Source: Rhodothermales bacterium (lineage in GTDB: Bacteria > Bacteroidota > Rhodothermia > Rhodothermales > Bin80). From it: a DNA stretch of 64,000 nt. The notes below the pieces were generated by a model. The model was not told the DNA's origin. It saw only the letters and a list, made by a program, of their open reading frames with translations, and did no database searches. Each line of letters starts with the position of its first letter. Positions within the stretch are counted from its first letter, which is position 1. The stretch is from contig JAJEDR010000025.1 in the NCBI GenBank assembly GCA_022821385.1, positions 1-64,000 on the forward strand, read 5' to 3'. Below, piece after piece: positions 20,784-58,848 of this stretch. The translations under genes and the position numbers were made by a program.

Positions 20784-21596
20784 CTAAGACCGGCTATCCA
20801 ACACTGTGGAGTTCAGCACAAAAACCGGGTCTGTTGGCCGCATGGTTGTCTGATATTCACGTTGAATAGCTTTGAACCCCATAAGTTCGAACGCTCGGCC
20901 CAAAAACATGGTGCGTTGGAAAGCAGTAAGATAATGCCATGTCGTTAAGACTTCGAACGAAAGCTTCGGTTTTGCGGAGGATTATGGATCACGGACTATT
21001 GGTTCTACGCTTCCGCAGGCACAAAATCGTTTAGATAGAGGAAAGCTGGAATCTGGGGACGGGGTAACTAGCAGTATAGAGCGCGTATCATCTGCGCCAA
21101 CGTATCTCGCTGATGTTTCTTGCACAGCCTGATGAATCTGGCGGGTTGTCCGACGGTATACACTTGCAGATTTTGCACGCGGAAGATGGCTTACCGTTTG
21201 GTTTGCCGGACTTGATATTAGGAGCGAAGACGGAGTAATTACCGTTGATTGCAAAATGCCAACGGATTCAGGTACGGACAAGAAAACAGTATTTGCCAGA
21301 TGTCTTGGTGATTGATCAACATCTGCGAGGGGGTGGGTGTACATAATGATGAGGGTACCGGGACCACTGCTGCGGAAGGGTACAATGTCGTGTATGACGA
21401 TGAGGGCGGCCTGTAGGCCGAACATCCTGCGACTTCCTGCCAGACCATCCTCGGGCTGATAACTAATATCTCGGGAGGGATGCACCTTCCCCCTCCTTCC
21501 CCTATGGCCAACATGCAACAAGGGCATAATTGGGGCTTGGGGTGGATCAGAATAACGCTCAGCCTTGGACGAGATGCGGAATAGTTGGTATATCAC
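20784..21596 (-). pseudogene. Unrecognised, apparently broken coding sequence with an in-frame stop
   Basis: One reading frame runs from about 21596 to 20784 and is interrupted only by a TAA at 20982-20984. The part after the stop reads like a real protein C-terminus (VLTTWHYLTAFQRTMFLG, FELMGFKAIQREYQTTM, DPVFVLNSTVLD). The part before the stop has poorer composition and the opposite strand is also partly open, so the 5' section may be frameshifted. I do not recognise the family. It could be one decayed gene or two unrelated fragments. Confidence 0.3.
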
Positions 21597-46008: not shown

Positions 46009-46596
46009 CTAACTGGAAGAATCAATGGAATCCAAGTTGTCGGGGAGCCATGGGTGCCTAGGTGGGAAGTTGCACTCCGTGCGCCCGATCTCGTTGCCCT
46101 CGCTGTCGTAGGTTCTGTTGTACCCTTCCGCAACGATCATTCCCGTTTCCTCGTTGTTGTGCCCGTCCGCACCGTCGCACACCCCAATCAGGTCGTCTAT
46201 GCACTTGCCGAACTCCGTCTTCTTTAAAATATTGGCTTTAGTTCTTACTTCGCAGTCAATTGTCCGCGTATTCGTCTTGTACTGAATGTGCCAACCCGCA
46301 AAGCCAATTCCAAACGCATCCTCGTCCGTTATGGAGCGCCAGCGAATGCCGCCGGGCAAAACTCCGCTGTCACCCTCTTCAAAGGAAGGCAACAAAGCGT
46401 CATGGTGCCTTGAAAGCTGGATCATGCCGTCCGGTGGCAATTGATCAATCAGTTCAGCTATTTCGTCGCTCGAAGCTTGGCTTTCCGTATGTTCAACCGA
46501 GTTGGAACAGCCAACGGCAATTAAGGCCATTAAGACCGGGGGCGCAAGGAAGGAAAAACGCTTCACGTGTCTGGTATAGGGTTGGGTTGAATGCAT
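46009..46596 (-). CDS. Cys-rich exported lipoprotein, copy A
   Basis: From the ATG at 46596 the product has 195 residues. A hydrophobic signal segment (FLAPPVLMALIAVGC) ends in a Cys that fits a lipobox. The C-terminal part has four Cys: C-x16-C-x7-C-x34-C (DCEVRT, GKCIDDL, GVCDGA, TECNFP). The lipoprotein at 50500-51033 has the same spacing (x16, x7, x33) and similar surrounding residues, so these are paralogues. Two disulfides could form. The family is not recognised. An IS1595 transposase fragment lies just upstream. Confidence 0.65.
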   Translation of the reverse strand: MHSTQPYTRHVKRFSFLAPPVLMALIAVGCSNSVEHTESQASSDEIAELIDQLPPDGMIQLSRHHDALLPSFEEGDSGVLPGGIRWRSITDEDAFGIGFAGWHIQYKTNTRTIDCEVRTKANILKKTEFGKCIDDLIGVCDGADGHNNEETGMIVAEGYNRTYDSEGNEIGRTECNFPPRHPWLPDNLDSIDSSS

Positions 46597-46646
46597 GAAT
46601 TGGTTCCGCTTACTGAAGCGCTTCCACAAAGTTGCTGTCCGACTGG

Positions 46647-46967
46647 CTACAACCTCGTTACAATCCCGTCCACGAACGCGTCAAAGGGAGCCTCATAGTC
46701 ACTATGGTTGTACTTCCAGCAACTCTCCGCTAGAAATAACGGCTTGCGCTTATTGCTGTAGTGGTGGTGCGTGCCGAACCACGCCCGCTTGACCAGCGCC
46801 CAGAAGGACTCAATGTTGTTGACATGCACGTTGCCCTCAACGAATTTGTGCGCGTGGTGGATCACGGAGTGCTTGTAGTCTCTTCCTGCATACTGGTAGG
46901 CGGAGTATTCGTCCGACATTAGGTCCGTGCCACTGGACTCGACGTGGGTGTGTCTGCAGAATATCAC
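46647..46967 (-). mobile_element. IS1595-family (ISXO2-like) transposase, C-terminal fragment
   Basis: The frame reads TDLMSDEYSAYQYAGRDYKH, VIHHAHKFVEGNVHVNNIES, FWALVKRAWFGTHHHYSNK and AESCWKYNHSDYEAPFDAFV. This is the second half of the ISXO2-like DDE domain (motifs DEYxxY, VHxNxIESFWxLxKR, E-x-C-W-x-Y-N). About 100 codons remain, so the zinc ribbon, helix-turn-helix and first Asp are lost. No terminal inverted repeats were identified. It ends 50 bases upstream of the Cys-rich lipoprotein gene. Confidence 0.75.
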
Positions 46968-47143
46968 AGATTGCGACCGAAATTGGCCACGAATACTATG
47001 TCTTCAACAATTGACGGCTATATCTTCGCGTCTCCCCCACAGTCTAATGACTATTTGCCGCCGAATGTCAACTGCCCTTCTGTGACGTTATTTTGCAATC
47101 GTCACAATTCGCAAGTCTGCGATAAATTTCTTCAGAGGTAGGC

Positions 47144-47713
47144 TTATGAATTCCTTCGTTTTTTAGCTAGCTCCTTCATATGTCTAATGAAGTCACCCTG
47201 CTGATTCAAAGGTAATTCTCGATCTAAAGAATTTTTCGTACGCTGGGGGACCAAATCAGCCTCTGATATCTGGATCGTGCGAATTTCTACCAAGGCATCA
47301 TAAACATGCACCTGATAATGATTAAGTGCCTGTTCATCCCACTTTGACGAAGAAAGTGTTAAATCCCCGTAAAAGGTTATGTCATCTTCGCCCAACACGC
47401 CGCCCACGGAAGGAGAATTTTTATCATTTATTGCAAATACTTCACCTGGCGAAGAAATGACTCGGACGGTTGGTCCAGCCAGCGTTACTTTGCGGAGTCC
47501 TCCATCCTCGAAACGTTCAATTAAAACCCCCTTATCCCCAAATACCGTGATTGTGGCTTCCTGTTGAATGAGCGTAGCATTTTCTCCCGAAAGCTCGTCT
47601 AACGTAACTTGAGCAGAAGCTGTAGCGCATACAAATGCAAACAAAAGTAGCGCTATTAATGAACCTCTTGCGAAGCCATTTTTTGAGGTGGAAGTCGAGT
47701 GGATTGCTTGCAT
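47144..47713 (-). CDS. Exported protein of unknown function
   Basis: From the ATG at 47713 the product has 189 residues. The signal peptide (GSLIALLLFAFVCATASAQV) is cleaved before VTLDELSG. The mature part is beta-rich, with alternating hydrophobic residues (ATITVFGDKGVLIERFEDGG, VTLAGPTVRVISSPGEVFAI), and ends in a basic tail (LAKKRRNS). This resembles a small FecR-like or cupin-like surface domain, but no family motif is visible. The region is accessory. Confidence 0.55.
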   Translation of the reverse strand: MQAIHSTSTSKNGFARGSLIALLLFAFVCATASAQVTLDELSGENATLIQQEATITVFGDKGVLIERFEDGGLRKVTLAGPTVRVISSPGEVFAINDKNSPSVGGVLGEDDITFYGDLTLSSSKWDEQALNHYQVHVYDALVEIRTIQISEADLVPQRTKNSLDRELPLNQQGDFIRHMKELAKKRRNS

Positions 47714-47830
47714 GATCTTGGTTACTAGTCTTGGGTTTCGTGGGACCAACGTCGCTAATGGTTCAATGATCCGCAGGAGCCTGTACACCAGCCGCCAATA
47801 TTCGGATCGCGTTGCGGGAGATAAACAAAA

Positions 47831-47855
47831 GGGTCAGATCGAACGATGCTGACCC
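47831..47855 (-). terminator. Rho-independent-like terminator
   Basis: Read on the minus strand the sequence forms a 7-bp stem (GGGTCAG and CTGACCC) with an 11-base loop, followed directly by CTTTTGTTTAT-like T-rich DNA. It lies about 75 bases downstream of the small gene ending at 47929, so it probably ends that transcript. Confidence 0.5.
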
Positions 47856-47928
47856 CTGGAATCAAAAGGCTTGGCATACACATATGGACGTGCAACCCGC
47901 CCGGGTTTTAAAAGAAGCGGTTTCCCGC

Positions 47929-48165
47929 TTACGCCGTCACCGTTTCTACAAGAAGACGGTTGAGGCGAGGCGCCGAGCGGTCGTTTGTGCCCGCAAGAGA
48001 ATCTTCAAAGAATGCAATGAAAGCAGAGCGCTCTAGCGGATTCGACTCGAAAGATTCCAAGGCAGAAATGAATTTTTTCCAGAGTGGTTCTTCAATCTGG
48101 CCAGCCAGATATCGTGCAAAAAGATGCACCATAGGGTTCGTGTTCTTTACTTTCTTGTTTGCCAT
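47929..48165 (-). CDS. Small hypothetical protein
   Basis: The 78-residue protein (ATG at 48165) is helical: NPMVHLFARYLAGQIEEPLW, KKFISALESFESNPLERSAF, IAFFEDSLAG. No motif or family is recognised and no signal or TM segment is present. The clean start, normal codon texture and the following terminator-like hairpin support a real gene. A function cannot be given. Confidence 0.5.
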   Translation of the reverse strand: MANKKVKNTNPMVHLFARYLAGQIEEPLWKKFISALESFESNPLERSAFIAFFEDSLAGTNDRSAPRLNRLLVETVTA

Positions 48166-48296
48166 GTTATCGTTTGGGCTCGGAGTCTGCAGTCTCTACG
48201 GCAAAAATCGGGCCAAAGTTGCGTTTTATGACCAAGAGGTTGACTTACTTACACGAAACAGGCCGGATATACGCAATTAATGAGGTGATGGTATCC

Positions 48297-49226
48297 TCAG
48301 AAGGGAGGTTCAAAACCGGCTTTGCCCTCTTCAAGGGTTAATCCGTAGTCCCCTATACAGAGGGCGAGGGTGTGTCGCCATGCATGGTATCGTCGTAGAT
48401 ATTCGCGTGGCAGCGATGCCAGGTCACAGCCGAGTTTTTGTGCCATGAGGTTGAGAGCGTCATCCCGTGTCATGGCTACAAATCGACCTCTGTTGAAATG
48501 AAAGGCCTGCGATACGAAACGCCCCACCCCGGTAGAGACAAGTTGCTCAGCAAATCTTGTCGGGTTATGCAGCCAAAGTAATGGGGTCAGAGTGATGCAG
48601 GTCGAGATTCCAGACGAGGCCACTTCGGTGATTGCTTCCAGCCGTCGCTGGTTACCGGGGCACTTTGGTTCGAAGGTGTGCCGGACAGATTCATCATCCG
48701 TCGTAACCGTCATGTTGATCTGTGCATTGCCCCCATTTTCAACGATAGTCTGGTAGAGATCCAAATCACGGACTACATCCGGGCCGCGTGTTTGAACCAC
48801 CAGTTTGGGACGCGGCTTGTGGTAGTGAGTCGTTTCTGCCGTTGCAGTCTTGCCCGCCAGTACCTCCAATACTGCACGGGTGAGTCCCAGCTTTCGCTCA
48901 AGAGGTTGATAGGGATCCGTGACACTGCTCATGTAAATCCGTTTTCCGTCCAGGCAGCGACGATTGCGGTGGAGTTTTCGGTTCAGGTTTTCCGCTGCAT
49001 TCTCCTTTACGCGGACCCAGTAACCCCAGTTGTCCCGGTGGTATGGACTTCTGGAAAAGAATGCAGCGTAGCAGTATGTGCAGCCAAAAGCACAACCGGA
49101 GTATGGGTTGAGGGAATAGTCATAGGCTTCTATGAAGCCAGTCGCCCGTGTCAAAATGTTTGATGTTTTGCCATAGGTGATGTCATTCAGTTGCCCTAAG
49201 CGTTGAGGTATGAGGTGGGTGTCCAT
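48297..49226 (-). CDS. Radical SAM protein, PA0069/SplB-like family
   Basis: The 309-residue enzyme binds a 4Fe-4S cluster through the CxxxCxxC motif in SGCAFGCTYCYAAFF (Cys45, Cys49, Cys52). The family signature continues with KRIYMSSVTDPYQPLERKLG and LVVQTRGPDVVRDLDLYQTI. This SPL-like group (PA0069/Rv2578c type) is widespread and of unknown substrate. It starts at the ATG at 49226; TonB-receptor debris lies upstream. No partner gene is seen. Confidence 0.87.
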   Translation of the reverse strand: MDTHLIPQRLGQLNDITYGKTSNILTRATGFIEAYDYSLNPYSGCAFGCTYCYAAFFSRSPYHRDNWGYWVRVKENAAENLNRKLHRNRRCLDGKRIYMSSVTDPYQPLERKLGLTRAVLEVLAGKTATAETTHYHKPRPKLVVQTRGPDVVRDLDLYQTIVENGGNAQINMTVTTDDESVRHTFEPKCPGNQRRLEAITEVASSGISTCITLTPLLWLHNPTRFAEQLVSTGVGRFVSQAFHFNRGRFVAMTRDDALNLMAQKLGCDLASLPREYLRRYHAWRHTLALCIGDYGLTLEEGKAGFEPPF

Positions 49227-49348
49227 CAGAGTGGTTCGTGCCTAGGTGAGCAGGTAGGTGAGAGCAGCCGAGGAATCTAAGTGCCTCCCACTCGGGTAAA
49301 GATATATACACAGCTTACAGCATGTATGAGGAGGAGCGGCAGAGCGAC

Positions 49349-50005
49349 CTAAATTGAATAAGACAGTGTGAAGTAGAAATTACGGCCCGGATTGGGCAGA
49401 TTACTGAAACATAGATGCTCGTGATAGTAAACACGAAACAGGTTGTCTAAGCCGATACTCAGGTCTATCCCGGGTCCAAGCGTTGTTCCTCCTCGAACGT
49501 TGACGACGCAACAACCATCTGTTCCATCCTCATCGGCAAAAATACGGGCTACCCGGTTTTGAGGCATGGCCATCTGAGCTTCCAGATCGCCCCACCATTT
49601 GTTGTACATGGCACGAAGGCTGGTCCAGCCGGTGAGGGGAGGGATCAGATACATCGGTTCATCAAGCTCAAGATTCTGTCCGCATGTCTACGAAGCGGTT
49701 CCAGTCAACTCATGCCATTCCCGAAGAACAAAAACGGCACATGCGTCACCACCGGTGAGGAATGCGGCAGATGAGTTGTAATAGGTTCTGAATCTTGGCG
49801 CGGAAGTGCTTCCGAGCAGATCTGAATCGTTTCGGTCGCCAACGTAATGGAGCACATGATTGGCAAAAATGCTGGCACGAACCCTGATCTTTGAGGTCTA
49901 TTTCTCAATCCCCAATTCGACCTGAGTACTTCTTTCAGGATTTGGGTTAAGGTTGCCGGTATAGAAATAGCCATCAACGTAGTTGTACACATAGTGTCCG
50001 TATTT
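49349..50005 (-). pseudogene. TonB-dependent receptor, C-terminal barrel pseudogene
   Basis: A single frame reads through YVDGYFYTGNLNPNPERSTQ, VELGIEK, a TAG at 49898, RVRASIFANHVLHYVG, FRTYYNSSAAFLTGGD, a second TAG at 49688, GWTSLRAMYNKWWGDLEAQM and the C-terminal LSIGLDNLFRVYYHEHL and GRNFYFTLSYSI. These are the last strands of a TBDR, including the closing aromatic strand (family pattern LDNLFNxxYxxHLxxxxxPxPGRNFxxxxxY). A third stop at 50006 and frameshifted sequence upstream mean the plug and first strands are lost. This is a dead receptor gene, of the iron/B12-type rather than SusC. Confidence 0.7.
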
Positions 50006-50499
50006 CTAAACATGCGTGGGGAGTCGCCGAAAATCTGCCATGGATCAACGCAATCGCCCCCCTGGAACCCGGCTCTTGCGTCAGGCTTAGGCTCACATTT
50101 CCAAGAGAATAGGATTGAGTAAAGTCGCTGAGGTTCCAACGCCATTGCATCGCAGCAATGGCTTCTTGGTGCTGCGCCTCGCAGGGTGAATGATCCAGAT
50201 GGTTCCAAACCGAAGTTGCTCCAGAATGAGGAATGGCTTCCGATCTACAGTAAATTCGGGCTAGGCAGAGATGCAGCTTCTGAACAGGCCTGAACCGGAA
50301 AACCTGCAGGACAATCGCCTTAACGTCAACTTTTTGCAAACGCTGTATCCAAATACGTCGCGACCAAGAAATTCTCCTTCAAATTGGCTCCTCAGATGTA
50401 CGCAATCGTGGCCAAGATGCCTTCAATTCGGTGAGAAAACGTGCTCTAGAGCAGACATGATACACAATGTTGTGCAACAGGTAGACGTGGACTACCCCA
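50006..50499. other. Degenerate stretch next to the receptor pseudogene
   Basis: About 490 bases. Minus-strand frames such as 49974-50339 are open but their products look like shifted receptor sequence rather than an intact protein. I could not align it to TBDR strands with certainty. No gene is called. Confidence 0.4.
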
Positions 50500-51033
50500 T
50501 CAGCGGTATGTTGGATTACAGGGCACTGCCGTAGCCGTGTTGTCGTCGTTGTAGGTTACGTTCATACCGTGAGCCTCGAGCGATTTACCGTCTTCGCTGG
50601 AGGCATATACAGCAGTGTCGCAACTCTCGCTTACGAACTGTATGCAGTCTGCAAAGTCCTCAAAGCCGAGAGAACTAGCCCCCTTTTTCATTGTGCATTC
50701 GGGGGTTGCGAGCGTGCGGTAGGAGTCCTGCCGGTCATGTTTATACGTGGTTTTGATCTGCATTCTTATGAAAGGAACTAGGAAGTCACCAGCATGAGCG
50801 GCTCCCCAATGTCGGCCATCTGAAAGTTGACCTGAATAGTCCCACTCGAACCGAGCGAGGTAGTCAGGAACCGAAGTTATAAGGACGAGGCTGTCTTCTT
50901 CTCCCCAATCGGCTCTTAGTAGTGCCTCTATTTCGGTGGAAGTATCTTGGGGCGCCTCCGTTACAGAGGATTCGCAGGAGGCAAATAGCGCGAGAAAGAT
51001 TGGGACTGCAAGTATGCGAAGTACGTGTTTCAT
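50500..51033 (-). CDS. Cys-rich exported lipoprotein, copy B
   Basis: From the ATG at 51033 the protein has 177 residues. A lipoprotein-type signal (MKHVLRILAVPIFLALFASC) is clear. Four Cys in the C-terminal half follow C-x16-C-x7-C-x33-C (PECTMKK, ADCIQFV, ESCDTA, VPCNPT), the same as in copy A at 46009-46596. Short matches (the CI of the second Cys, CD of the third) also agree. Function unknown; the Cys content and the nearby CPYC thioredoxin-like protein suggest disulfide chemistry at the cell surface. The gene is upstream of a TBDR pseudogene. Confidence 0.7.
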   Translation of the reverse strand: MKHVLRILAVPIFLALFASCESSVTEAPQDTSTEIEALLRADWGEEDSLVLITSVPDYLARFEWDYSGQLSDGRHWGAAHAGDFLVPFIRMQIKTTYKHDRQDSYRTLATPECTMKKGASSLGFEDFADCIQFVSESCDTAVYASSEDGKSLEAHGMNVTYNDDNTATAVPCNPTYR

Positions 51034-51364
51034 TTTGTTGGTCGGTCTCACGCGGCGTAATCACAGCTTCGGCAGCAAGCTTCTGCACAGACACTCGTCA
51101 AAGGTGTTTCCAGTCGTGCGTAGGTCACGTACTGATCACGATCCATTGTCACCCGCTGTCAACTAGGGTTGGCACAATGCCCAAAAGCACGTCGAAACGG
51201 CCCTTATAAAGGTGTTGCTTAAGCCTTGAGTTCTGGCTTACCCTGCGGGACTATCGCCATTACCTGGAATGAAGGTGCCCGCTTCATGAATTTCTTGCGT
51301 CCCAGCACCTCAGAACGCAAAATCACCGGTTATTGCATTCTTCCGCATCCAAACCCACCCACGC
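51034..51364. other. Intergenic region, 331 bases
   Basis: No convincing gene. Short frames on both strands lack motifs. It follows the end of the propeller operon on the minus strand and holds the promoter of lipoprotein B. No terminator hairpin with a T run was found. Confidence 0.4.
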
Positions 51365-52384
51365 TTACCGATACAGCAACCTATACACCACAACGACCGT
51401 ATCGCGAATTTCATATGCTCTCTCGTCAGTCAATAGTGCAAATAAACCATCCGGCAACTTCACTGATTCATTATAATTCCCATTTTCCGCATCATAATAG
51501 TCAGCAATCATCTTCATGCGCGGATCCTTATTATCCCTCACTAACACAATAACTTGATCGTCGTTCACAAACATCGAATAATTCAGCGGAGGTCCGGGCC
51601 ACCTCATGCCATTCTGCTCGACCATCTCCTCAGGCGGCTCAAACCCAACCGCTCCAATAGTCCTACGAGCGTACTTCACTTCTCCGTCACTGTTGTACCT
51701 AATTAGCGCTGGATACAAAGATGGTACGAAAAGCACATCTTCACCGAAAGCACTCAACCTTCCCGGTATTAGATACTTGTTGCGGACATGCAAGTTTTCG
51801 TCCAGCAACCTCCCAAACATTAGTGTATCAACATTCGAAGAGGTCACAAAGAATTCTCTATATCTGTAGTCCGAAGGTATCAACCAATATTTTCGTCCAC
51901 TGTTTGTTACGACCATTCTTTTAAAATGCATTTCGGGTTCCTCCATTGTCAACAAAGAGCCATCTGGCTGAAAATACGTCAGTCGCCGGTTCATGCTATC
52001 GTATATAAAGACTACCGAATCTCCGATTGTTCCTAAATTTCCCATTTGCATTACCTCTCCTGGCGCCCATCCCATGCCCTGCCCGTACGTCGTTGTGTGC
52101 CGCCCCAAATTATCGAATGCTTTCACACTCATGTCTCCGTAATCTCCAACGTACACGTTCTTTCCCGGCCCCTTCAATACACTGCCCGGGGTATAGAGCA
52201 TCATGCTGTCATCAACTGGTAAATAGTGCAATGAATCCAGCGTCACATTACGCCACGCACGACTCGTTGCATCTTGTTCGATCAACGGGATTTGAATTTC
52301 GACTTGTAGCCGACCAGGCTCCCCACATCCCAAAGAACTGATCAACAAAACGCCAACCCCGGCAAGTTTCAAGAATGCACTCAT
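51365..52384 (-). CDS. 6-bladed beta-propeller lipoprotein
   Basis: The 339-residue product has a lipoprotein signal (FLKLAGVGVLLISSLGCGE). The mature chain has the 6-bladed propeller look common in Bacteroidota: KNVYVGDYGDMSVKAFDNLG, MGNLGTIGDSVVFIYDSMNR, RLTYFQPDGSLL, and VVVVYRLLYR at the C-terminus. Its ATG overlaps the stop of the thioredoxin-like gene (ATGA), so the two are translationally coupled. Such propellers are surface binding proteins of unknown ligand. It is similar to the proteins at 52971-54089 and 54471-55511. Confidence 0.8.
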   Translation of the reverse strand: MSAFLKLAGVGVLLISSLGCGEPGRLQVEIQIPLIEQDATSRAWRNVTLDSLHYLPVDDSMMLYTPGSVLKGPGKNVYVGDYGDMSVKAFDNLGRHTTTYGQGMGWAPGEVMQMGNLGTIGDSVVFIYDSMNRRLTYFQPDGSLLTMEEPEMHFKRMVVTNSGRKYWLIPSDYRYREFFVTSSNVDTLMFGRLLDENLHVRNKYLIPGRLSAFGEDVLFVPSLYPALIRYNSDGEVKYARRTIGAVGFEPPEEMVEQNGMRWPGPPLNYSMFVNDDQVIVLVRDNKDPRMKMIADYYDAENGNYNESVKLPDGLFALLTDERAYEIRDTVVVVYRLLYR

Positions 52385-52959
52385 ATCACCACCTTTAACT
52401 TAACCAGGGTGTTATCAATAAGTAATTGCTCGATTTGGCTTTCCTGTTCCGCATCCAGCATGCCAATCCATTTATGCTGTACTCTGCCTTCGCCATCAAC
52501 AATCAAAATGGTTGGTACATACTCAACATTAAGGTCAGACACTGGAATGACCATTAACGTATCTACTCGTACTTGATACTTGGCTAGCATGCGTTCTTGA
52601 AGTCGGCGGGATTGACTAGTATCGATAACTGCCATAAAAGCGAACCGCCTATTCACTTGGCTGCCTTTCAATGTTTTCTGAAGTGTTTTGTAAAATGGCA
52701 TAGACTGAATGCAGTAAGGGCAACTAGGCGTAAGGGCCAGCAACACCGCACCATCATACTTATCCCAGTCTTCAAACAATTTCACTTCTCCTATTTCCTG
52801 TGTGCCAGCAGTAGTATCGAGATCGCTATCGTCTAAGCCGGTAAAAACCGTGAACACAACAAACACAATAATAGCAAGCAACAATGTGCTGTGGGCAATG
52901 ATTTCCAATTTACCCATAGATTTGAGCGTGCGTCTGCAGTACGCGAGTAATGATTTCAT
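52381..52959 (-). CDS. Membrane-anchored thioredoxin-fold protein (TlpA-like)
   Basis: The 192-residue product (ATG at 52959; GTG at 52980 is possible) has one N-terminal TM helix (IAHSTLLLAIIVFVVFTVF) and a periplasmic thioredoxin-like domain. The redox motif CPYC sits in LALTPSCPYCIQSMPFYKTL, and the cis-Pro region is YVPTILIVDGEGRVQHKW. It would reduce or oxidise disulfides in exported proteins. It lies between two propeller lipoprotein genes, coupled to the downstream one by a four-base overlap. Substrates may include the Cys-rich lipoproteins upstream, which is inference. Confidence 0.8.
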   Translation of the reverse strand: MKSLLAYCRRTLKSMGKLEIIAHSTLLLAIIVFVVFTVFTGLDDSDLDTTAGTQEIGEVKLFEDWDKYDGAVLLALTPSCPYCIQSMPFYKTLQKTLKGSQVNRRFAFMAVIDTSQSRRLQERMLAKYQVRVDTLMVIPVSDLNVEYVPTILIVDGEGRVQHKWIGMLDAEQESQIEQLLIDNTLVKLKVVI

Positions 52960-52970
52960 TCTATAATCAA

Positions 52971-54089
52971 TCAAAAACACTTTTGGTGTTTGATAGGCGG
53001 CGTTTCTAAGCGGCTAAACAAATCGTGCCTGTATACTGTTACTGTAGTATCTGTATCAGCGGCGATCCGTTTTGCAGATAAAGTGATACGTCCAATGAAC
53101 GGTATCTTTACTGATCCGATATAGTGTCCGGTCGCGATACTATAGGCATCCATGGCACGCTCACCATTTGGACGAACATTTATTAACAGCCAACCATTAA
53201 CCACATTCGTTCCATAATGTATTATGCTGGATATCGGAGCTATTAATACCTGTGCATCTTTATCCAACATCCGAGTCTCTATTTGTGCTTCTCCGGTTTC
53301 ATAGGCTGTCATGGTACGTTGTGCGTACAGTAGACTGCCGGTTGAATCATACACTGCAAACATTGGATAATATGCGGACGCAAATATCATGCAGTTCCCG
53401 TATGTGTGAATCCATCCCTCATTACCTAGGGCTGTCGCAATGTCACCTTGATTTTCGAAGACCTTGCCAAAGCGTCGCCTGCCCGTATCGGTTATTACTG
53501 TAAATAGCGATTCTGACTCCAAATAGAAATAGTATGAAATACCGGACTCGGTGCGTGCTTGGCGAAGCGGGTTATCGAGTTGTTGCTTTGCCCAAAAGCG
53601 ATTGGTTTGGGTTTCGAAGGTATATTCAAAAAATTCGGCGGTCAGAACTATTAGGGAGTCACCAACAATAATTAAATCGGACACAGGCATACGTATCTGT
53701 CCAGGGGCACTCCCAATTCCGCGCGTGTGTAATGCTGCGAACACCCCCGTTGTATAAAATTCTATTACGTGTCTGTCCACTACATCGTAAACCTATAGTT
53801 GATCTTTTGTGTCAAAACGATTGGCAAAGGGACCGAATACCGGCACAGAGTCGGTGTATGAAATCTGAAACAGCGAATCCGTGGAAAATTGGTTCCATAC
53901 GCGTTCCGTAGAGCGTCTGGGATTTAGTGTTAATGCTATGCCTTCAACCACTTCAGTGTCAGGTTTTTCCGCACACGAAGTGAGCGCGACAGCCAGTATG
54001 ATGGCTACGGCGTAGACTGCTCTAATTGGAATCTTCGATTCTGCAGTCACTGTCGCCCTCGGACTGTCGAGGCTTGGACAATAGGGCAT
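52971..54089 (-). pseudogene. 6-bladed beta-propeller lipoprotein with in-frame TAG
   Basis: The reading frame carries a lipoprotein signal (IRAVYAVAIILAVALTSCAE) and 6-bladed propeller sequence, interrupted by a single TAG at 53793-53795. The text continues in the same frame after the stop: FDTKDQL, stop, VYDVVDRHVIEFYTTGVF, through to TVYRHDLFSRLETPP. Without the stop it would be a protein of about 360 residues, the usual size for this family. The stop could be a real nonsense mutation, a sequencing error or a strain polymorphism. A GTG at 54050 may be the true start. Confidence 0.65.
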
Positions 54090-54470
54090 ATTGCAATCAG
54101 GCAAGCGGACTGAGGCCCCGAAGTGAATTGGACAGCGAGACAAAGGCCTGCTTTAATATGTGCGCCAAACTGCGTCCACCGCGCATGCAACCCGTTTTCT
54201 AGCGATCGCAGTGTGCGTGAAGCATCGGCTAGAATCTCGTGCAGTAAGTCAAGGATTGGGATCACCCAGACATTTTGCAAGGATATAACTGCAGCCGAAG
54301 TCATTGCACACTTTGCTCCGAACATACGAATTCCAGGATCATTAAACAAAATCATGCGAGCAATCCACTGGACCGCCAGCTCTGAAACTGGTTGTGCAAC
54401 AGGTCCACCAATCGTGAGAGGCCGAGAATCCTCGGGGACAGCATGTGCCGCGCATTGGCCTAGACCTTAC

Positions 54471-55511
54471 GTGAGTTGCATTCTTGCAGTCATGCTGTGT
54501 GCTTCTTGCGGCTCCGATCAAGAAGTGAACAATGTCAAATTCGAAGCCCTAAGTGTGAGCCCCATTGTAGGGCAGCAGTCGTACGATCGAATTATGGGTG
54601 AAGTGTCTCTACGCAAGCTGTTCGAACTGCCGGCAATGCCTGACGAGATTGTAATTGCCCCCGCAGGTGTGTTCGCTGATACTATGGGATACATCTATGT
54701 GGCAGACAACTGGGATTATCGGATCCATCGCTTTGATGCTTCCGGGAATTACATTACTTCCTTCGGAGAAGGCCAGGGGGAGGGGCCCGGAGAAAACATG
54801 GGAATCTTGAACTTCGGGGTATTGGGTGACTCAATGGTGTATATGTTTGAGTACATGACTTGGGAGGTCTCTTATTTCGATCTGGACGGATCCTTCCTGC
54901 GGTCTGAGCGCTTGGACGGATCAATACGTGAACATCCAGATCAATACGTGATCACGCGAAAGGGACGAATATATTCTATGTTCTCTCTTCAGGAAAACGT
55001 AGACCAAGAGCTATTCGAATCCCGACTCGGCAACGATGTTGTCAAGTTTGGCCAAATCTATGGCGGGGGTCCATATTCCTCAATGATGGCGGCAGGTAGA
55101 TTGATGACATTCAAGGAGCACATGATCTATGTGTCTCAGTGGTATCCGCTGTTCGTTCAGTATCGTCCAGACGGATCAATGAAGTACGCAAGGACCACAA
55201 TCGACCATGTCTCAATAGAGGAGCCGAAGTTGATTAGGACCCAGAGAGGAGGGTATGTAGACGGGCCACCTCTGATTCGGAGTTTTCCGACGGTGTATCA
55301 TGGGCAGCTATACATTCACGCCTACATTGCCCAGACGATTGACATCTATGACGCCGAGACGGGAGACTACTGGCACTCCATCAGGTTGCCTGAGAACGGA
55401 TTTACACACGCGCTCAACGACCGGATCTACCAGGTTGGAGACAGCACGGTCTCTGTTTGGGCTATTGAGAATAACAGTCCGCGTCCTGAATTATCGACAT
55501 TGTCCGAATGA
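54471..55511 (+). CDS. 6-bladed beta-propeller lipoprotein, divergent copy
   Basis: From the GTG at 54471 the product has 346 residues and a short lipoprotein signal (CILAVMLCASCGSDQ); an ATG at 54354 would add 39 residues. Propeller blades are visible: YIYVADNWDYRIHRFDASGN, FGEGQGEGPGENMGILNFGV, LGDSMVYMFEYMTWEVSYFD, and the final QTIDIYDAETGDYWHSIRLP. It is divergent from the pseudogene copy and shares its domain order. Ligand unknown. Confidence 0.8.
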   Translation: MSCILAVMLCASCGSDQEVNNVKFEALSVSPIVGQQSYDRIMGEVSLRKLFELPAMPDEIVIAPAGVFADTMGYIYVADNWDYRIHRFDASGNYITSFGEGQGEGPGENMGILNFGVLGDSMVYMFEYMTWEVSYFDLDGSFLRSERLDGSIREHPDQYVITRKGRIYSMFSLQENVDQELFESRLGNDVVKFGQIYGGGPYSSMMAAGRLMTFKEHMIYVSQWYPLFVQYRPDGSMKYARTTIDHVSIEEPKLIRTQRGGYVDGPPLIRSFPTVYHGQLYIHAYIAQTIDIYDAETGDYWHSIRLPENGFTHALNDRIYQVGDSTVSVWAIENNSPRPELSTLSE

Positions 55512-57279: not shown

Positions 57280-58848
57280 ATGATGAAGCGCCAAAGCATT
57301 GCCGCTCCTAACCTTCAAGACAAGGACTTTGAACGTCGGCTGCGCCCGCGTAAACTGGAGGATTTTATCGGACAGGAGAAAATCAAGAGCAATCTCAGAA
57401 TATTTATGCGGGCTGCTCTTGAGCGGGGAGAAAGCCTTGACCATGTACTTTTATCTGGTCCTCCGGGGCTGGGCAAGTGTGTAACGGCAGATACACAAAT
57501 ACAAACTCCTCAGGGTCCCGTGCCTATGGAGCGCCTGATTCCAACCAATCTTAGTCCTGGCGAATGCAGGAACCACACTGTAACAGTCGTTGGAGCATTT
57601 GGCGCAGAGCGCACCTCACACGTGTATGCAAGTGGGTCCGGTCCTACAATTCGTCTATTTACAAGATGCGGAAAATCTGTGGAGGGTACCCCCGCACATC
57701 CTGTACTGGCAGAAAAGCAGGGCTACATGACCTGGCGACCGCTCGGATCACTTGAGCTCGGAGACCGGGTATTGGCATTACAGAAAGAATCTGCGCAGGA
57801 TTCCGCCGAATGCGGAGATTACCAGGATATCCGGTTTACAAAGCAGGACTGGATTGCCTTGGAAGCATCAAGTGAAAACAGACCAAAAGCAACTGGGGGT
57901 TTTAAGTGGAGTACGGTCACGCGACTCGAGCGTGCGGAGGCAGAAACATTCGACTTTGTAGTTCCAGGCTCACATTCGTTCATCGGTAACGGGTTCTGCA
58001 ATCATAACACGACGTTGGGCCACATTATCGCAGAGGAAATGGGGGCTGCCATTACCACCTCTTCTGGTCCAGTACTGGATAAACCCGCAGATCTGGCAGG
58101 CATTTTGACCAAATTGAAGGAAGGGGATGTTCTTTTCATAGACGAAATGCATCGTCTATCGCCACTGGTGGAGGAGTATCTCTATTCAGCCATGGAGGAC
58201 TACTATATCGACATTGTCATTGACAGTGGCCCGAATGCACGAAGCGTGAAGATCCCATTGCCCCGGTTTACAATGGTGGGAGCCACGACACGAAAGGGGT
58301 TGTTGACTGCCCCTCTGCGTAGTCGGTTTGGGATAGATTTTCGGTATGATTATTATAGCGCTAAGTTGCTTCAGGCCATTCTTACACGTTCGGCGGGCAT
58401 TCTGGGTGTTCTGATCGAAGAGGAGGGTGCGTACGAGATTGCCCGTCGTAGCCGCGGGACCCCCCGTATCGCCAATCGCTTACTGCGCCGTGCCCGTGAC
58501 TTTGCGCAGGTGGAGGGAGACGGTTGTATAAGTCTTAAAATGGCCGACCGTGCACTGACAGCACTGGATGTAGACGCCGAAGGGTTGGACAGCATGGATA
58601 CGCGTATACTGCTCAGTCTCATTGACAAGTTCAATGGCGGGCCTGCCGGACTCTCAACACTGTCCGTATCGGTCGGAGAAGAGTCAGGAACAATAGAAGA
58701 GGTATATGAACCTTACCTGATACAAGAGGGATATATGCAACGCACGCCGCGTGGGCGTGTAGCAACCAAACGGGCATACAAACATTTTGGGAGAAAAGCC
58801 CCGGGTGAAATACCAACACTATTTGACACTGGAAACGGAGGAGAATGA
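57280..58848 (+). CDS. ruvB: Holliday junction helicase RuvB, interrupted by an intein
   Basis: The 522-residue precursor would give a 345-residue RuvB after splicing, normal for the family. The first extein (1-66) has [20 protein letters not shown] and ends in the Walker A start LSGPPGLGK. The second extein begins [14 protein letters not shown] and has [19 protein letters not shown], the Walker [11 protein letters not shown], the sensor motif [19 protein letters not shown] and the C-terminal winged helix with [17 protein letters not shown]. RuvB rings drive branch migration with RuvA (17643-18224). The ATP site is split between exteins, so activity needs splicing. ATGs at 57280 and 57283 are both possible. 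Confidence 0.95.
57478..58008 (+). other. Mini-intein in RuvB, 177 residues, inserted in the Walker A motif
   Basis: The intein runs from Cys67 to Asn243, between Lys66 and Thr244 of GPPGLGK|TT. Block A is [13 protein letters not shown], with the nucleophile Cys at position 1. Block B is [10 protein letters not shown] (TxxH, Thr137-His140). Block F is [17 protein letters not shown] (Asp225, His232) and block G is FCNHN, with penultimate His242 and terminal Asn243; the +1 residue is Thr. The W-R-P-L[12 protein letters not shown] segment after block B is also typical. No LAGLIDADG or HNH endonuclease motif lies between blocks B and F, so it cannot home by itself. All residues needed for splicing are present. 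Confidence 0.93.

Follow-up and report, generated by a model that had tools for sequence, protein, structure and literature searches.

A conserved propeller-thioredoxin unit with small cysteine-rich peptides in Rhodothermales, and a probable peptide-less copy beside two four-cysteine lipoproteins

Which of the genes that lie around a membrane thioredoxin in this Rhodothermales genome belong together? In the window (the whole 64,000-nucleotide stretch that was analysed, on contig C49 of a 3.4-Mb draft genome in 96 contigs), two lipoproteins with four spaced cysteines lie near a thioredoxin gene and three propeller genes. The initial annotation had joined all of them into one surface module, a divergent analogue of the NVEALA loci of Bacteroidota with larger lipoprotein partners. 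The features concerned, with position and strand in the window, are as follows.

lipoA, 46009-46629, minus: four-Cys lipoprotein, beside his genes in its own genome, G004 and G008; outside the module
lipoB, 50500-51051, minus: four-Cys lipoprotein, judged a neighbour and not a member of the module
propA, 51365-52384, minus: intact 6-bladed propeller lipoprotein, downstream of trx
trx, 52381-52980, minus: thioredoxin-fold protein with N-terminal anchor and CPYC
propB, 52971-54143, minus: propeller lipoprotein upstream of trx, with an in-frame TAG at 53793-53795
propC, 54354-55511, plus: divergent propeller lipoprotein (PF17170), related to the module propellers
degenerate four-Cys lipoprotein copy, 21113-21407, plus: pieces of the family profile, broken by stops and changes of frame, ~29 kb away from the propellers

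A thioredoxin gene among propeller genes

Gene order and homology bear out the core of the earlier reading: a TM-anchored CPYC thioredoxin sits between two propeller genes, with a third propeller gene divergent. Of the flanking pair, propA is intact, whereas propB is interrupted by its TAG. The three genes run in tandem on one strand, trx overlapping propB by 10 nt and propA by 4 nt, and these overlaps are consistent with a single predicted transcript. The position of the propB TAG is a sense codon in sister genome G004, where the orthologue is intact (window/G004 dN/dS 0.31). Stop-codon readthrough at this TAG was considered and set aside, given the sense codon in G004 and the decay of the region.

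We found propC to score above the PF17170 cut-off (31.6 bits, cut-off 22.9), and its start is probably the ATG at 54354, not 54123. The propA product had no Pfam match and is homologous to propC (E 1e-40); propA and propB are propellers by homology only. The propeller tree was weakly resolved.

The Trx protein carries an N-terminal hydrophobic segment, read from the sequence as an anchor, and the CPYC motif. All of its Pfam and NCBIfam scores fell under cut-off. Among solved structures it comes closest to thiol-disulfide oxidoreductases of the StoA/ResA type, with StoA giving the best profile match (E 7e-6). Three members of its family are without the second active-site Cys (CPYS, CPYT), leaving the first as the only invariant one. 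This suggests that the family is not a uniform dithiol reductase and leaves room for a single-Cys or isomerase role.

Farther along the window, a RuvB gene (57280-58848, plus) is split behind its Walker A region by an intein-like (Hint) element of ~170 residues. G008 has a gene of the same length that is 92% identical to it.

Small cysteine-rich peptides precede propeller and thioredoxin in relatives

Around the relatives of Trx we found a recurring gene order on one strand: pepA, pepB, a propeller lipoprotein and Trx. The full order occurs in families f1 and f5, and pepA-propeller-Trx occurs in f14. All named relatives are metagenome-assembled genomes of Rhodothermales or Rhodothermaceae, and the bacteria that carry the module are probably sponge-associated, judging by isolate names. 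The sets found, by genome, contig and locus, are the following.

Clear set: G010, C35 (L085)
Clear set: G001, C32 (L083), with Trx frameshifted and a second propeller behind Trx
Clear set: G007, C18 (L081)
Clear set: G005, C22 (L082)
Clear set: G004, C5 (L067), with pepB truncated
Clear sets, another family: G057, C22 (L158) and G051, C78 (L159)
Partial or decayed sets: G001, C80 and C106; G009, C29; G004, C85; two places in G011; contig C55 of the window's own genome
Partial or decayed sets, third family: G089 and G087

Several propellers of the module pass the PF17170 cut-off. On contig C5 of G004, a PF15869 (TolB_like) propeller gene (L067 15485-16681, minus) lies between the block syntenic to the window and the full module.

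Both pepA and pepB encode small peptides with about eight Cys each and a hydrophobic, signal-like N-terminal segment. Seven Cys are invariant in pepA (11 sequences); eight are invariant in the five f1 sequences of pepB, and fewer in f5. Neither peptide matched a family in Pfam or NCBIfam. The two are probably related to each other, on a profile comparison that includes the signal region. The structure model of pepA (pLDDT 61) was too poor for a fold search.

We found module Trx in 14 of the 114 genomes of the order. Among 245 genomes of the class, 11 had the pepA gene; among 394 sampled across the phylum, 7 had it, and all of these belong to the same order. All 11 pepA genomes are among the 14 with module Trx (hypergeometric p 6e-13, shared ancestry ignored). 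Propeller and thioredoxin genes form a genuine, conserved unit.

The four-cysteine lipoproteins are a separate family

As the initial annotation had it, lipoA and lipoB are paralogues (E=1.8e-6 in a search of their own genome; profile E ~1e-62 to 1e-70) with spacings of C-x16-C-x7-C-x34-C in lipoA and C-x16-C-x7-C-x33-C in lipoB. The lipobox Cys and all four further Cys are invariant in 15 of 15 aligned members (L077 left out), and over 22 members their conservation is 90% or more. The pattern is therefore not a chance one. In a profile search of the 114 order genomes, 10 of the 16 that share the window's taxonomic family had these lipoproteins and one further genome had a weak match, with ~20 places counted in 11 genomes. 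The window's own genome holds four intact copies and the degenerate one at 21.1-21.4 kb of the window. For lipoB, dN/dS lies within 0.24-0.31. A lipoprotein structure model was usable (pLDDT 75, pTM 0.68); with it, Foldseek gave no match at E<0.001 and VIA-align no Z above 4.8.

We scanned the flanks of the lipoprotein loci (up to ~10 kb per side, less at contig ends) with the propeller, Trx and peptide profiles. Conserved adjacency to module genes was found only for lipoB and its orthologues in G004 and G008 (in G008 next to a contig end), which together are one inherited locus. Elsewhere the lipoproteins mostly stand apart from propeller and TlpA genes, with two unconserved exceptions: in G010 (L076) a four-Cys lipoprotein adjoins a PF17170 propeller, and on contig C24 of the window's own genome (L007) another adjoins a TPR-TlpA protein. 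Similar lipoproteins elsewhere have neither neighbour. Presence does not track the module either: G005 and G007 have full modules without a four-Cys lipoprotein, G003 and G006 have the lipoprotein without module Trx, and co-occurrence of lipoprotein and Trx within the taxonomic family was not significant (p=0.09).

These results bear on the proposal that the four-Cys lipoproteins play the part of NVEALA peptides in a larger form, partnering the propellers and thioredoxin in redox reactions or display. The conserved cysteines, the adjacency of lipoB to propA in three sister genomes and the two exceptions speak for it. Yet propeller, Trx and peptide genes are all missing from the vicinity of most lipoprotein loci, and in relatives the place of the partner is taken by real small peptides. 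We consider the proposal highly improbable and reject it on distribution and neighbourhood; the "larger lipoprotein partners", and a single surface module that includes them, were an interpretation that the distribution does not support. The four-Cys lipoproteins are a separate, dispersed, lineage-specific family and most likely unrelated neighbours of the propeller-thioredoxin genes, and a loose association with propeller or TlpA neighbours may exist.

The window most likely holds a peptide-less, partly decayed copy

The pepA and pepB profiles had no match near 50-56 kb of the window. A propeller-trx-propeller layout without peptides is found in the window and in G001 (C120, L163); at L083 both peptides precede such a layout. 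Since L083 combines this layout with both peptides, the simplest reading is that the window copy lost its peptides. The window most likely carries a peptide-less, partly decayed copy of the module, consisting of the interrupted propB, trx and propA, plus propC.

Decay is seen across the syntenic locus: propB, stopped in the window, is truncated in G008, and trx has stop codons in G004 and G008. Between lipoB and the gene at 48297 lie fragments of a TonB-dependent receptor (49349-50339, minus), and G008 has an intact receptor of 749 aa at the matching place. An IS1595-type transposase remnant (46647-46967, minus) lies between lipoA and the gene at 47144.

The window copy, with no peptides and a broken propeller, may thus be a dying relic. 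In its strongest form, this reading makes the locus non-functional, with every module gene decaying and no function left; the stops and truncations just described agree with it, as do the receptor and transposase remnants nearby. However, propA is intact in the window's own genome, G004 and G008 with dN/dS of ~0.3, a test weakened by the short divergence, and the window trx is intact and keeps the residues that are invariant in its family. A locus wholly without function is distinctly unlikely.

A proposed role in peptide folding, possibly in trans

Contig C55 of the same genome (L042 7366-10812, minus) carries a tandem duplicate of the peptide-propeller unit. The first copy has intact pepA, pepB and propeller genes; the second has a broken pepA and an intact propeller; both Trx genes are present only as fragments. 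No intact module Trx other than that of the window was found in this genome. In G008 the only Trx is broken, and no peptides were found. Because the C55 set is without Trx, and G008, with its broken Trx, is without peptides, we propose that the window Trx may serve the C55 peptides in trans, a prediction that rests on one draft genome.

Under the mechanism that we propose, pepA and pepB, with their eight or so Cys each, would be exported, and the membrane-anchored StoA/ResA/TlpA-type Trx would reduce or isomerise wrong disulfides so that the peptides fold. The propeller lipoprotein would then bind the peptides once they are folded, for display, release or recognition. In the window's own genome, the peptides of C55 would be those served by the window Trx. 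We infer these functional steps from the order of the genes, their signals and their families. What was observed directly is the gene order, the homology, the signal-like N-termini, the conserved cysteines, and the losses and stops. The CPYS and CPYT members of the Trx family count against this explanation, as does a window copy with no peptides and a broken propeller.

Alternatively, Trx could act on another extracytoplasmic substrate, such as a cytochrome or the propeller itself, or serve in disulfide repair at large, with the peptides merely co-transcribed. Its profile is nearest to StoA/ResA-type proteins, which are not peptide-specific, only its first active-site Cys is invariant, and the window and L163 copies have no adjacent peptides. 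Against this stand the fixed gene order, the presence of module Trx in every pepA genome and the many propeller paralogues in the window's own genome that have no adjacent Trx. We regard a different substrate as rather unlikely.

With moderate confidence, we favour the joint reading that the window carries a partly decayed copy of a pepA-pepB-propeller-Trx module with a role in redox folding and propeller binding, that its Trx may act in trans and that the lipoproteins are separate. A second joint reading is held only tentatively: a Rhodothermales module in which disulfide-rich secreted peptides of two related families are made together with their own membrane thiol-disulfide isomerase and a propeller that binds them. 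Such a module would be a counterpart of NVEALA loci, either convergent or very remote, and the window Trx would act in trans.

Comparison with known systems

The analysis replaces a guessed grouping of lipoproteins and propellers with a defined four-gene module that includes two peptide families without a Pfam or NCBIfam match, and it names candidate secreted peptides for probably sponge-associated bacteria. Searches of the literature for NVEALA, DUF5128 and related terms found nothing useful.

Compared with StoA/ResA/TlpA-type oxidoreductases, module Trx shares the membrane-anchored thioredoxin fold and, in most members, a CxxC motif. It differs in that CPYC is not their usual motif and some members have CPYS or CPYT, in its place among propellers and peptides, and in scores that lie under the Pfam and NCBIfam cut-offs. 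Like the 6-bladed propellers of PF17170 (DUF5128), propC and several propellers of the module pass the cut-off of that family; unlike them, propA has diverged beyond what Pfam recognises, and only its homologues connect it to the family.

NVEALA peptides (PF14055) were found in one of 296 sampled genomes, a member of Bacteroidales, where arrays consist of a peptide and then a putative lipoprotein of PF17170, PF15869 or, in one case, PF13970. Nothing scored over the PF14055 cut-off in 21 relatives, and pepA and pepB had no match to it. The relatives resemble NVEALA loci in that a small signal-bearing peptide gene lies directly upstream of a propeller lipoprotein, the peptide-propeller unit is repeated in a genome and the propellers belong to PF17170 or PF15869. 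Unlike NVEALA loci, they have two peptides before each propeller and a membrane Trx that closes the unit, and the window copy has no peptide gene upstream of its propeller. The NVEALA analogy drawn by the initial annotation thus holds for a propeller-Trx unit with small Cys-rich peptides in relatives, but not for the lipoproteins as partner. The module is organised like an NVEALA locus and is not a member by its peptides. Such a second peptide family in a propeller context offers independent evidence that an exported Cys peptide and a propeller, at times with a thioredoxin, form a functional unit in Bacteroidota.
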